Virus record (IMG/VR): IMGVR_UViG_3300046462_000434
Coordinates: 1-28,298 of that record
Direction: 5' to 3' (one strand)
Origin: a virus
Length of the DNA: 28,298 nt
How positions within the stretch are numbered: position 1 is the first letter of the stretch; each line of letters begins with the position of its first letter. The translations under genes were made by a program, and so were the position numbers. Under the pieces are notes generated by a model. It searched no databases, was not told where the DNA came from, and saw only the letters and a list, made by a program, of their open reading frames with translations. Below, one piece after another: positions 6,027-9,685 of this stretch.

Positions 6027-6492
6027 AGCGCATCTCAAGGTCGCCATTTCCGACTTGGCGCAGAACCCCGACAAGCTGCTGGTGTTCGCCGATGAAGGCA
6101 ATACGGTGGCCACCGGCACCGGCTCCCTGTCGTTTGAGTATCGGTATAAATTGAATATCATCATTACCGACTATAGCGGCGATGCCGACGCCATCATGGT
6201 GGCGCTACTGGCCTGGGTAGAAGTCCACCAGCGCGATTTATTGGACAACGCGGATCTGCGAAAAACCGGCATTGGCTTTGATGTCGATTTCAACAATCAC
6301 CAAACGATCGATCTGTCGATCAAGCTGGCGCTGACCGAGCGCGTAGTCGTCAAGCGAGGTAACGGTGGCCGGCTGGACGTGCGGCACCCTGCGGAGCCGC
6401 AGCTCACCCCAATCTATGCGGATCAATTCTGGCAAGCCTATGCGGGGGATTCGTTGATCGCTGAATGGCACACGCCGGCAGATCCGCAATGA
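6004..6492 (+). CDS. R: Tail completion protein, gpR-like
   Basis: 162-aa tail completion/terminator protein (P2 gpR about 155 aa). It opens MYKPKSLRAHLKVAISDLAQNPDKLLVFADEG, a strongly conserved gpR N-terminus. In P2, gpR and gpS are needed to finish the tail end that joins the head. It overlaps the o-spanin by 23 bases and S by 4 bases (ATGA). Confidence 0.93.
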   Translation: MYKPKSLRAHLKVAISDLAQNPDKLLVFADEGNTVATGTGSLSFEYRYKLNIIITDYSGDADAIMVALLAWVEVHQRDLLDNADLRKTGIGFDVDFNNHQTIDLSIKLALTERVVVKRGNGGRLDVRHPAEPQLTPIYADQFWQAYAGDSLIAEWHTPADPQ

Positions 6493-6953
6493 GTGACGAT
6501 CTGCGTGCCATCGAACAATGGGCCGGGGCAATGCTGGCCCAGCTCCAGCCTAGCCAGCGCCGTGTCATCACGCACAAGATTGCCCAAGACTTGCGTCGTA
6601 GCCAGGCGCAACGTATCGCGAGCCAGAAGACGCCGGACGGTGCGCCCTACACGGCACGCAAGCAGCGCAAAAACCTGCGTGGGAAGACCGGGAGAATCAA
6701 ACGGCAGAAAGTCGCAATGTTCGAAAAAATCCGTCTGCAAAAGAATCTCAAAACCGAACAGGACGAAAATCAACTTTCGGTTGGATTCTTTGGACGCGTG
6801 GCACGCATTGCCCGCGTACACCAGGAAGGATTGGCAGACAAGGTCGACAAAAAAAGAGGGCCGGAGTATCGCTATCCGGCCCGGCCTTTACTCGGGTTCA
6901 ATGCTGTCGATCAAGCACAAATTCGAGATTCACTATTGCGTCACTTGACTTGA
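6489..6953 (+). CDS. S: Tail completion protein, gpS-like (phage virion morphogenesis)
   Basis: 154-aa partner of gpR in tail completion (P2 gpS about 150 aa). It begins MSDDLRAIEQWAGAMLAQLQPSQRR. The basic middle (KTPDGAPYTARKQRK) and the C-terminal YPARPLLGF region are family hallmarks. The start ATG overlaps the R stop. Its 3' end carries a stem-loop (6858-6882) that reads as a terminator on the other strand. Its last 13 bases overlap the convergent DUF5677-like gene. Confidence 0.93.
   Translation: MSDDLRAIEQWAGAMLAQLQPSQRRVITHKIAQDLRRSQAQRIASQKTPDGAPYTARKQRKNLRGKTGRIKRQKVAMFEKIRLQKNLKTEQDENQLSVGFFGRVARIARVHQEGLADKVDKKRGPEYRYPARPLLGFNAVDQAQIRDSLLRHLT
6849..6882 (-). terminator. Minus-strand rho-independent terminator inside the 3' end of S
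   Basis: Read on the minus strand: GGGCCGGA, a 9-base loop, TCCGGCCC, then TC and seven T. The perfect 8-bp GC-rich stem is at 6858-6865/6875-6882 and the T run corresponds to A 6849-6855. It lies 59 bases past the stop of the DUF5677-like gene, so it would end the com-methylase-DUF5677 transcript. The hairpin is also inside the S reading frame, where it codes for RGPEYRYPARP. Confidence 0.8.
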
Positions 6954-7756
6954 TTCGTCTCATACTGCGCCTGCAGCAATTTCCATTTGGGCAGAAAATC
7001 GACCACGATACGCTCAAATTCAGGCTTCTTAAATACTTCAGAAATTGGCATAAGCGTATGTAGTAAAGTACTAGTCGCCATAGACAAGGTATGCGGCAAA
7101 TCTTCTTGCACTGGTTCAAATCTGAGATCGCAAATTTCGCCAGCCTCATCCTGATAAATATGCCGCGTCAATGCCCCAATCGTAGGATGCGCAGCATCGC
7201 CAGAAATACCACGAAAAACCGTATCATATAGGCCAATCAGTCCGACATCAGTAGCAACATTTTTTAGGATGTAGCTGTTCGGCTGTCCGTTTGGGAAAAG
7301 CTCGTCAACGCTGTCCATCACTCGTTGCAATGACGCCAGCGTAAAAGGTGAAAGTTCCGTAGCCGCATCTGGATTGGTACTAAGTGCCTTGGCTAATTGC
7401 GATGAATGCTTTTGATGAGACTCGACTAATTTCAGAACAAAACTAGCATCTTTCCCCACCGCAGCCAGAACAATTGCTGTTTCCGCACAATTTCTGACCA
7501 ATGTACGCGCCTCCGAAATCATACCTCGTTCGGCCAATAAAACTGCGCCTTGAAACGACTGGACTGCTCGGCTAAAGAGTAAAGCAGCAGTCAACTGCTG
7601 TTTGTTGTCTTTCAGCGGATGTAAGTTAGTGAGAGCTTGAAATACAGTTTTGTTTAAATTCGCAACCAGTTCAAACCATTCCCTGAAATCAATATGACTT
7701 TGATTGATGAAAATATGTAAATCGCCAGATAGAAATCCATCTGTTTGAAATGTCAT
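6941..7756 (-). CDS. DUF5677-like protein, minus-strand cargo (moron) gene
   Basis: 271-aa, mainly helical, cytosolic-looking protein of unknown function. It resembles the DUF5677 family: a helical core LLFSRAVQSFQGAVLLAERGMISEARTLVRN with ETAIVL (about 58-95), and later GISGDAAHPTIGALTRHI (about 183-200) with conserved-looking His. The start ATG 7756 has a good ribosome binding site (AGGGGGA). Base composition is visibly more AT-rich than the structural genes around it, which suggests separate acquisition. It lies antisense to the late genes, 55 bases after the methylase stop, and has its own terminator. P2 carries the non-essential orf30 between S and V. Role unknown; a host-takeover, exclusion or defence role is possible but not shown. 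Confidence 0.65.
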   Translation of the reverse strand: MTFQTDGFLSGDLHIFINQSHIDFREWFELVANLNKTVFQALTNLHPLKDNKQQLTAALLFSRAVQSFQGAVLLAERGMISEARTLVRNCAETAIVLAAVGKDASFVLKLVESHQKHSSQLAKALSTNPDAATELSPFTLASLQRVMDSVDELFPNGQPNSYILKNVATDVGLIGLYDTVFRGISGDAAHPTIGALTRHIYQDEAGEICDLRFEPVQEDLPHTLSMATSTLLHTLMPISEVFKKPEFERIVVDFLPKWKLLQAQYETNQVK

Positions 7757-7811
7757 TTTCTTCCCCCTGTTTTACCCTCGTCGAGCTATTAATAATACTC
7801 GTCAATCCGAC

Positions 7812-8606
7812 TTAGAAAAGCTGTGTCACCACATCTGCATCCCAATTGGTAATAACCAGTTCTTTGCTAGTCCCCGGCTGGCCATGTGTACTGCCGATGC
7901 TGTATTTGATATCCAGTCCCATCATCGTAAAACCGTCGAACACGCGGCGGATATCCGGGTGATCGTTGATGCTGACCATCACCTGGCCCTTGCAGGTCCG
8001 CATGAATTCGGCCATTTGTTCGTATTGCTCAATCCCGAAGTCCACGCCGTAACCCTCCGTTTGCCAATATGGCGGATCGGCATACTGAAATGTATGAGGC
8101 CGGTCGTAGCGTTGCATGCATTCCAGCCAAGGTAAATTTTCAACATAGGTGCCGGCCAGGCGCTGGCGGGCCGCCTTCAGGTTGTCTTCTATCCTGGTGA
8201 GATCGATGGCCGGCCCGGTGGTGGCCGTACCGAAATGTTGTCCGGTCACCTTGCCGCTGAAAGCGTGCTGCTGCAAATAATAGAACCGGGCGGCGCGCTG
8301 AATATCGGTCAAGGTTTCCAGGCGCGCATCCTGGTGCGACTTGAATAGCTGCCGGCTATTGGTCCACCATTCGAACTGCCGTACAAATTCGGCCATATGG
8401 TGCTGTACAACGCGGTACAGATTGACCAGTTCGCCATTGATGTCGTTGATGACCTCGGTGCGCGCCGGCACTGGCCGCAGGAAATACAGCGCGGCGCCAC
8501 CGCAGAACACCTCGACGTAACATTCGTGCGGCGGGAATATGGGAATGAGTTTATCGGCCAGGCGGCGTTTGCCACCCATCCAGGGAATGATCGGACTTGC
8601 TTGCAC
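7812..8606 (-). CDS. DNA adenine methylase, D12 class (Dam-like)
   Basis: 264-aa N6-adenine methyltransferase of the D12 class. The N-terminal PWMGGKRRLADKLIPIFP (8-25) and VEVFCGGAALYF (31-42) form the SAM-binding motifs. The catalytic DPPY is at 177-180 (YADPPYWQTEGYG). No restriction endonuclease is adjacent, so it is an orphan methylase, likely protecting phage DNA or altering host methylation. It starts at GTG 8606 with GGAG 6 bases upstream. The start lies inside com, overlapping by 56 bases in a different frame, as expected if Com controls its translation. The target sequence cannot be read from the protein. Confidence 0.88.
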   Translation of the reverse strand: MQASPIIPWMGGKRRLADKLIPIFPPHECYVEVFCGGAALYFLRPVPARTEVINDINGELVNLYRVVQHHMAEFVRQFEWWTNSRQLFKSHQDARLETLTDIQRAARFYYLQQHAFSGKVTGQHFGTATTGPAIDLTRIEDNLKAARQRLAGTYVENLPWLECMQRYDRPHTFQYADPPYWQTEGYGVDFGIEQYEQMAEFMRTCKGQVMVSINDHPDIRRVFDGFTMMGLDIKYSIGSTHGQPGTSKELVITNWDADVVTQLF

Positions 8607-8763
8607 GTGCTGCTCCAGTGTCAGATGCTCGACGGCATGCTGGTGCGGGGCGCGTGGCTCTCAGGTGGTTCAATGTGCCGCAACGCGGGCACTTGATGGA
8701 CAAAGTGACGTATTCACCTTCCCCTAGTTTTCGGGAACAATTCCCACATCGGATGTCCTGCAT
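8551..8763 (-). CDS. com: Com family zinc-finger translational regulator
   Basis: 70-aa protein resembling phage Mu Com, an mRNA-binding zinc-finger protein that opens the mom ribosome binding site. It begins MQDIRCGNCSRKL. A CxxC pair at 6/9 and a second at 25/28 (IKCPRCGTLNH) form the zinc ligands. It overlaps the following methylase, so it probably activates that gene rather than mom. The reading frame stays open upstream to an ATG at 8943, but that 60-residue extension is low in family signal, so I use the ATG at 8763. No strong ribosome binding site is seen. Confidence 0.8.
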   Translation of the reverse strand: MQDIRCGNCSRKLGEGEYVTLSIKCPRCGTLNHLRATRPAPACRRASDTGAARASKSDHSLDGWQTPPGR

Positions 8764-8798
8764 TTGGGTATACCTGCGTAAATATGCTAGCCTTCGGC

Positions 8799-8814
8799 CC
8801 ACCTGTACAGGTGG
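8799..8814. promoter_or_regulatory. 16-bp perfect palindrome upstream of com
   Basis: CCACCTGTACAGGTGG is a perfect 16-bp palindrome starting 36 bases upstream of the com start. A dimeric regulator could bind it, or it could form a hairpin in a com leader RNA. It also lies inside the optional N-terminal extension of com. No binder is identified. Confidence 0.45.
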
Positions 8815-8952
8815 CGCGGCCTTGGCCTTGCTTGCAGCCGTATTCTGCTGGCACGGTGACGTGATAGGTGTTGACGCACCCGGCACGTCGCCGCGTTCTT
8901 TTTCCAGGCCAGCACTGTAGTACGCCACCTCACAACAAAACATCTCTTGGCA

Positions 8953-8981
8953 GTCAGTAACGCGGATATCAACCCGCTACC
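8953..8981 (+). promoter_or_regulatory. Late promoter element before V, shared with P/O region
   Basis: 29-base element matching 878-906 at 23 positions, with GTAA near its left end and TATCAACCCGCT near its right end. It stands 29 bases before the V start and between the divergent genes com and V. P2 has a late promoter PV at this place that needs Ogr. The region 8764-9010 otherwise holds only the palindrome above; I see no further gene in it. Confidence 0.45.
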
Positions 8982-9010
8982 AGGTGCGCCAATTGCGGCA
9001 ACCCGGCAAC

Positions 9011-9685
9011 ATGCAACGCATGACTGCTGACACCTCCGAACTGCTGCGCTTACTCCTGAATCTGATCCGGTTCGGCACCATTGCCGACATCGATCACGAC
9101 ATCCAGCGCGTGCGTGTTCAGGTCGGCAAGAACATGACCACCTGGCGCCCCTGGGTCACGTTACGGGCCGGCGACGCGCAAACCTGGTTTCCGCCCTCTC
9201 TGGGCGAACAGGTCATCGTGTTGTCGCCTGAAGGTGATTTCACCCAGGCCGCGATCCTTCCGGCGATCTATTCCGATAAATTCATCTCGCCATCGACCAA
9301 CCCGGCGCACCACACCACACGCTACGCCGATGGCGCCGTGGTCCAATACGACCGCGACAGCCACACCTTGAACGCCACGCTGCCGGACGGCACCAGCGTC
9401 ATCGTCGCTCCTGGCAAAGTCACCTCTAACGCGGAAGATACCGAATGCACCGGCAACCTGCTGGTGCAAAAGAACCTGGTCGTCAATCAGAATTTAACGG
9501 TCAACGGCATGTCGGCCCTGAATGGCGGCATGAACGTCCAGGCCGGCAAGGATGGCGGTCCGGCGGCGATGATCCAGGGCATCATGCGCGCCACCGTCGA
9601 CGTGATCGCCGCCGGCATCAGCCTGGTGAAGCACCCGCACGGTGGTATTAAAAAGGGCGACGAAGATTCCGGGGCGCCGAAATGA
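9011..9685 (+). CDS. V: Baseplate assembly protein (spike), gpV-like
   Basis: Tail spike tip that punctures the outer membrane, 224 aa from the ATG at 9011. A start three codons on at 9020 (MTADTSELLRLLLNLIRFG) is equally possible; neither has a clear ribosome binding site. The N-terminal OB-like region contains the P2 gpV pattern (ADIDHDIQRVRVQVG, WRPWVTLRAGDAQTWFPPSLGEQVIVLSPEGDFTQAAILPAIYS). The C-terminus ends LVKHPHGGIKKGDEDSGAPK; the H-x-H type iron-binding tip of P2 gpV is reduced to KHPHGG here. The stop overlaps the W start. Confidence 0.93.
   Translation: MQRMTADTSELLRLLLNLIRFGTIADIDHDIQRVRVQVGKNMTTWRPWVTLRAGDAQTWFPPSLGEQVIVLSPEGDFTQAAILPAIYSDKFISPSTNPAHHTTRYADGAVVQYDRDSHTLNATLPDGTSVIVAPGKVTSNAEDTECTGNLLVQKNLVVNQNLTVNGMSALNGGMNVQAGKDGGPAAMIQGIMRATVDVIAAGISLVKHPHGGIKKGDEDSGAPK

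Follow-up and report, generated by a model that had tools for sequence, protein, structure and literature searches.

A com–methylase unit with a two-hairpin Com operator and an interchangeable third gene in the S–V slot of a P2-like phage

In the gap between the late genes S and V of a P2-like phage, com and a DNA methyltransferase gene make up a unit that includes a conserved RNA operator of the Com type, a feature that the original prediction missed, and the DUF5677 gene that follows them is, judging from comparison with related loci, one of many interchangeable cargo genes rather than a fixed partner. We consider it probable, with good overall confidence, that com and the methylase constitute a Mu-type translational switch kept through exchange of the enzyme, and that DUF5677 is a separate passenger. 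The window, meaning the whole 28.3-kb virus record analysed here (IMGVR_UViG_3300046462_000434), carries the P2-like late genes R, S, V, and W on its plus strand.

Gene content and module borders of the S–V slot

The slot is walled on the left by S (tail completion; 6465-6953, plus strand; PF05069) and on the right by V (baseplate spike; 8984-9685, plus strand; PF04717 and PF18946), with R identified by a PF06891 match. The three antisense genes predicted between these walls are all supported, each scoring over its Pfam cut-off. The first, com (8551-8763, minus strand, ATG at 8763), encodes a 70-aa zinc-ribbon translational regulator of the Mu Com family (phrog_6417), matching PF10122, the Com zinc ribbon (CxxC...CPxC), at 60.9 bits against a cut-off of 22.9. 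It is followed by a D12 N6-adenine DNA methyltransferase gene (7812-8606, minus strand, 264 aa, GTG start), which scores 88.5 bits with PF02086 (cut-off 22) and 313 bits with the PADLOC MTase_II model, carries the DPPY motif (YADPPYW), and has the Dam and DpnII methylases as its relatives in the PDB. The last, the DUF5677 gene (6941-7756, minus strand, 271 aa), matches PF18928 at 69.6 bits (cut-off 27.1) and is AT-rich as first noticed, with about 43-46% GC against about 57-64% in its flanks. The overlap between com and the methylase start measures 56 nt, the methylase and DUF5677 genes are separated by 55 nt on the same strand, and the stops of DUF5677 and S overlap tail-to-tail by 13 nt.

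A strongly conserved leader lies 5' of com (8764-8983, minus strand; alignment of 15 sister loci), containing a perfect palindrome, CCACCTGTACAGGTGG, and an AT-rich element, CATATTTA. The leader may hold the promoter, and the stretch separating com from V could act as a divergent promoter or as an operator; no P2 Ogr-type TGT-N12-ACA sites were found near com or V.

Borders were mapped by DNA comparison of the window with 22 sister loci. On the left, homology stops at 6943-6949, the S stop, in most sisters, and slightly earlier, at 6898-6931, in some (e.g., L009, L012, L090, L097). On the right, how far the match reaches depends on the gene content of the relative: to 7809-7816, the methylase stop, in most relatives with the same D12 methylase (7834-7839 in L014 and L015), only to 8620-8640, the Com operator, in those with another methylase, and only to about 8950-8965 in most relatives lacking com (8894 in L093). 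The stretch without homology thus runs from the S stop to the methylase stop, marking DUF5677 as swappable cargo, and methylase swaps, as read from these alignments, break within the Com operator. The order S-plus-terminator, cargo, methylase, com-plus-operator, V accordingly describes a set of nested modules, whose swap borders show cargo exchange without disturbance of the late genes. In one locus (L170:8560-10215), C-terminal fragments of S and of methylase are scattered through the slot like scars of repeated cargo exchange, and S fragments also occur inside the slots of L090, L093, and L129; these remnants support, at the level of sequence, exchange near the conserved ends.

The S–V gap had been proposed as the P2 orf30 cargo position, and this holds, since non-core genes lie between S and V, where orf30 marks a site of acquired genes (PMC3091744). 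Across 79 distinct S–V gaps from viral and bacterial contigs, the window's own included, slot length ranged from 582 to 6494 bp (the extracted stretch including S), and the 176 slot ORFs fell into 141 clusters, with families of the AriA, AbiTii, AbiLi, Old, PtuA, GajA, PDC-M01, CAP12-TIR, AbiJ, and RelA/SpoT types among them. In the close sister slots the third genes are mostly unknown, the single clear defence gene being the OLD gene of L097. There, a minus-strand OLD-family gene (L097:4139-5899; PADLOC Old, 262 bits) stands in place of com and the methylase. The slots of a distant clade (L128, L129, and others) carry mostly plus-strand cargo, including a protein of up to 1388 aa, so that cargo direction differs between clades. 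Loci found with the methylase as query inflate com–methylase counts, and frequencies were therefore read from the 13 sister slots found with V, which are unbiased for the methylase and contained com in nine cases, a D12 enzyme in five, a C5 enzyme in three, an N6_N4-type enzyme in one, and DUF5677 in none.

The strong minus-strand terminator predicted in the coding end of S is also borne out, as an intrinsic-terminator-like hairpin and T-run at 6849-6882 on the minus strand, composed of GGGCCGGA (6882-6875), a 9-nt loop, TCCGGCCC (6865-6858), and TCTTTTTTT (6857-6849), giving an 8-bp GC-rich stem followed by a run of seven T. A consensus terminator scan with a loop limit of 8 missed this hairpin because of its 9-nt loop, and the 71-nt fold around it is not unusually stable (z -1.2). 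Because the codons that make up the hairpin encode a motif conserved in S (KKGPEYRYPARP), a protein-level cause had to be checked. Among 18 sister S genes, synonymous diversity in the hairpin and A-run codons had an observed/expected ratio of 0.30 vs 0.63 elsewhere, the second-lowest value among 141 windows. A more distant clade encodes a similar S motif with other codons and no hairpin, and slot genes there run mostly along the late genes. The pattern is what one would expect if a minus-strand terminator, as part of the slot wall and not of the cargo, were under selection.

The two-hairpin Com operator

Across 41 com–methylase junctions, the alignment revealed a pair of hairpins with a 9-nt spacing; they lie towards the 3' end of com, immediately ahead of the methylase Shine-Dalgarno sequence. 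In the window, hairpin 1 (8648-8660, minus strand, inside com), identified by covariation and motif count, has 4 bp and a 5-nt loop, and is degenerate in this clade, with one A-C mismatch and CCACGCG in place of CCNNGAG. Hairpin 2 (8625-8638, minus strand), upstream of the methylase start, has an AUGC/GCAU stem around a CGUCGA loop and holds CCGUCGAG, of the CC(N)2-3GAG type; its stem and loop type are those of the Mu Com site (GAAUGCCUGCGAGCAUC), and it matches the Mu site as read from NC_000929. The whole operator is matched by our covariance model R1 at 8600-8666 (minus strand) with 73.5 bits, the window's own copy being part of the model, and the match spans the Shine-Dalgarno GGAG (8613-8616) and the GTG start (8604-8606).

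Covariation in the two stems is strong. At the 41 junctions, 94.2% of cells were paired and seven of the eight operator pairs had changed on both sides (53 cells), with a covariation of 0.510 vs 0.243 ± 0.018 in shuffled alignments; slid controls did not exceed 0.131. When the set was thinned to less than 75% identity (20 sequences), 28 double-sided changes persisted, and none of 1000 shuffles reached the observed values. Com selects CC(N)2-3GAG in vitro by SELEX, with GA in the loop (PMC6483171), and this motif was present in every leader, occurring in hairpin 1 in 27 of the 41 and in hairpin 2 in 34; both hairpins carried it in 20 leaders, hairpin 2 alone in 14, which include the window and the D12 sisters of the set, and hairpin 1 alone in seven. 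The window leader as such shows no unusual degree of structure (z +0.5 to +1.6), no conserved start-codon stem of the Mu TIS type was found across the aligned leaders, and Rfam returned no relevant family on this stretch, its one weak match, to a microRNA model below the gathering score, being taken as chance.

The operator follows com across methylase families. R1 finds it at com loci with D12, C5 (L090, L099, L102), and N6_N4-class (KS5, AP3) enzymes, as well as in phage B3. Among 399 genomes of the same order, 22 contained it (29 sites), and 26 of the 29 sites were preceded by a com zinc ribbon; the ten downstream ORFs that were scanned comprised five N6_N4, three C5, and two D12 methylases, and most of the remaining ones share 59-75% identity with the D12 sequence heading alignment A5. 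Conversely, a pattern screen detected neither a com zinc ribbon nor an operator pair 5' of 116 D12 loci lacking com, in which a single stray hairpin-like match occurred, and R1 gave no match over the many of these loci on which it was run. The two-hairpin model gives no match on the full Mu genome, as would fit a single site in Mu.

A second operator is present in one locus, and a marginal candidate for one in another. In L090 (4708-4777, minus strand), a second Com operator stands before a second methylase (PF01555) and lacks a com ORF of its own, only a com remnant without zinc ribbon accompanying it, an arrangement in which, going by operator positions, one Com may serve two messages. In L309 (G077:C67:5196-5256, minus strand), a weak second operator (E 6e-4) lies downstream of a com–C5 methylase pair, near a gene resembling an ABC-type ATPase with a GNAT-like end; the L309 and L303 matches are marginal and were not relied on.

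On balance, we favour the view that Com and its two-site RNA operator act as a general, portable translation switch before unrelated methylases (D12, N6_N4, C5), the operator being kept as the recombination junction and one Com being able to serve two operators, as in L090. As part of the same joint reading, the upstream hairpin would be decaying in the window and the downstream, Mu-like hairpin would be kept.

Alternative readings and a proposed mechanism

The position of the operator wholly within com in nearly all loci raises the question of whether hairpin conservation only reflects the conserved C-terminal protein sequence of Com (PxPERxRAS). We regard this as very improbable, since double-sided stem changes far exceed both the shuffled and the slid controls, the motif equals the experimentally defined Com RNA site, and L090 has its second operator where the zinc ribbon is missing. 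Protein constraint may still account for a part of the conservation, though the double-sided changes and the L090 operator that has no com ORF speak against this as well. Greater, though still limited, weight can be given to autoregulation, in which binding of Com to the hairpins would halt com translation and free the methylase start from com ribosomes. The location of the operator inside com, the frequent reading of com past the methylase start (by 56 nt here), and the lack of a detectable conserved start-codon stem would all suit such a model. Yet in several loci (L027, L041, L178) the com frame does not extend beyond the methylase start, so that a ribosome clash cannot be general, and the published account of Mu Com is of an activator melting start-codon structure (PMC6483171); autoregulation is therefore an unlikely account of the operator.

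The original prediction took com, the methylase, and DUF5677 as one functional module, which could be read as a regulated anti-restriction or anti-phage system where methylation shields self DNA and DUF5677 attacks unmethylated invaders. The three genes do share a strand, a 55-nt gap, and a common downstream terminator; DUF5677 elsewhere can adjoin Shedu and Gabija genes, and a few of its scanned neighbours match models of methyl-directed restriction and other defence. Against this, DUF5677 was absent from all 78 other S–V slots, and neither com nor a D12 gene stood beside it in any of 31 loci in other genomes and plasmids, so that the trio is no conserved unit and its predicted co-occurrence in related S–V gaps did not appear in the data searched. 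Moreover, the com–methylase pair keeps other third genes or none, the recombination border falls exactly between the methylase and DUF5677, and DUF5677 has its own strong Shine-Dalgarno sequence (AGGGGGAA). A three-gene module consequently has little to recommend it, and we think it highly unlikely.

DUF5677 itself belongs clearly to its family, the whole PF18928 domain lying over the cut-off with the R, E, YR, S, and AH positions common to the window protein, and ten aligned relatives conserve R88, E92, Y177, R182, S185, A189, and H190. Plasmids of Burkholderiales, a number of which are conjugative, carry relatives at 25-30% identity. None was detected in viral contigs by single-protein and alignment searches, in 50,697 phage records even at E = 1, or in the PDB by sequence and profile, and an AlphaFold model from the single sequence had a mean pLDDT of 40, too low for use. 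The gene has no PADLOC match, with the slot and some neighbours being defence-rich, and no function for DUF5677 was found in the literature. An Agrobacterium plasmid island (L280), where DUF5677 is flanked by Shedu and Gabija-type genes, offers a lead for its function. From location, our best guess, a tentative one, would be a single-gene role in phage competition or defence.

Setting these alternatives aside in favour of the com–methylase switch, we propose the following sequence of events. Com would be made from the same antisense mRNA as the methylase and would bind either or both of the hairpins near the 3' end of com, and by homology to Mu this binding would turn on translation of the overlapping methylase. 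Energetically, the isolated hairpins are unfavourable by about 5 kcal/mol. In 33 of 41 leaders, forcing them made the start region easier to open (mean energy 6.7 to 5.1 kcal/mol) in a calculation run without a control, so that an easing of start opening by hairpin formation is only suggested. The phage DNA would then be methylated in a timed way, and the methylase would most likely protect it, presumably allowing escape from host restriction. Protection of DNA is established for Mom and is a known role of phage orphan methylases. Over evolutionary exchange, phages would keep com and its two-hairpin operator and replace the methylase behind them. DUF5677 would sit as a passenger between the 3' ends of the methylase and S, possibly co-transcribed with com and the methylase, in a transcript ended by the terminator inside S.

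Novelty and comparison with known systems

Com–mom control, cargo in the P2 orf30 slot, and com–dam pairs are already known. No earlier description seems to exist of an operator with two sites, of its persistence when the enzyme is exchanged, or of loci in which one com accompanies two operators; in the open-access literature, no tandem Com operator outside Mu was found. Work on com and mom has so far treated them chiefly as peculiar to Mu. If one Com-operator class does serve three methylase families in Burkholderiales prophages, it would provide a predictable RNA rule for the timing of phage DNA modification. The Com hairpin is in use as a tool aptamer, and such a class of operators would also offer natural variants of this widely used RNA-protein pair. 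The putative antisense terminator lies inside S and goes with the slot wall, not with the cargo.

The Mu com/mom system (PMC6483171) shares with the window a zinc-ribbon Com, an overlapping downstream DNA-modification gene, and a CC(N)2-3GAG-loop hairpin just upstream of the start. It differs in having one described hairpin vs two in tandem here and Mom rather than a D12 methylase, and no conserved start-codon stem was found here. In Pseudomonas phage B3 (NC_006548), com overlaps a D12 methylase gene (com–dam) and carries the same two-hairpin operator; however, B3 is a Mu-like phage in which the pair adjoins the tape-measure gene, on the same strand as its neighbours and with no third gene. 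The Burkholderia P2-like phages KS5, AP3, and Mana likewise have com followed by a methylase with the same operator, but between G and FI and co-directional with the late genes, the methylase of KS5 and AP3 being of the N6_N4 class. Burkholderia phage KL3 has a DNA methylase, gene 28, antisense between V and S, but of the N6_N4 class and with no com listed beside it (PMC3091744). The slot itself occupies the same S–V position as the acquired-gene locus of P2 orf30 (PMC3091744), and defence genes are likewise cargo of P2-like phages at the P2/P4 defence hotspots (PMC9122126), of which that of P2 sits between Q and A, on the cos side, unlike the S–V slot described here.
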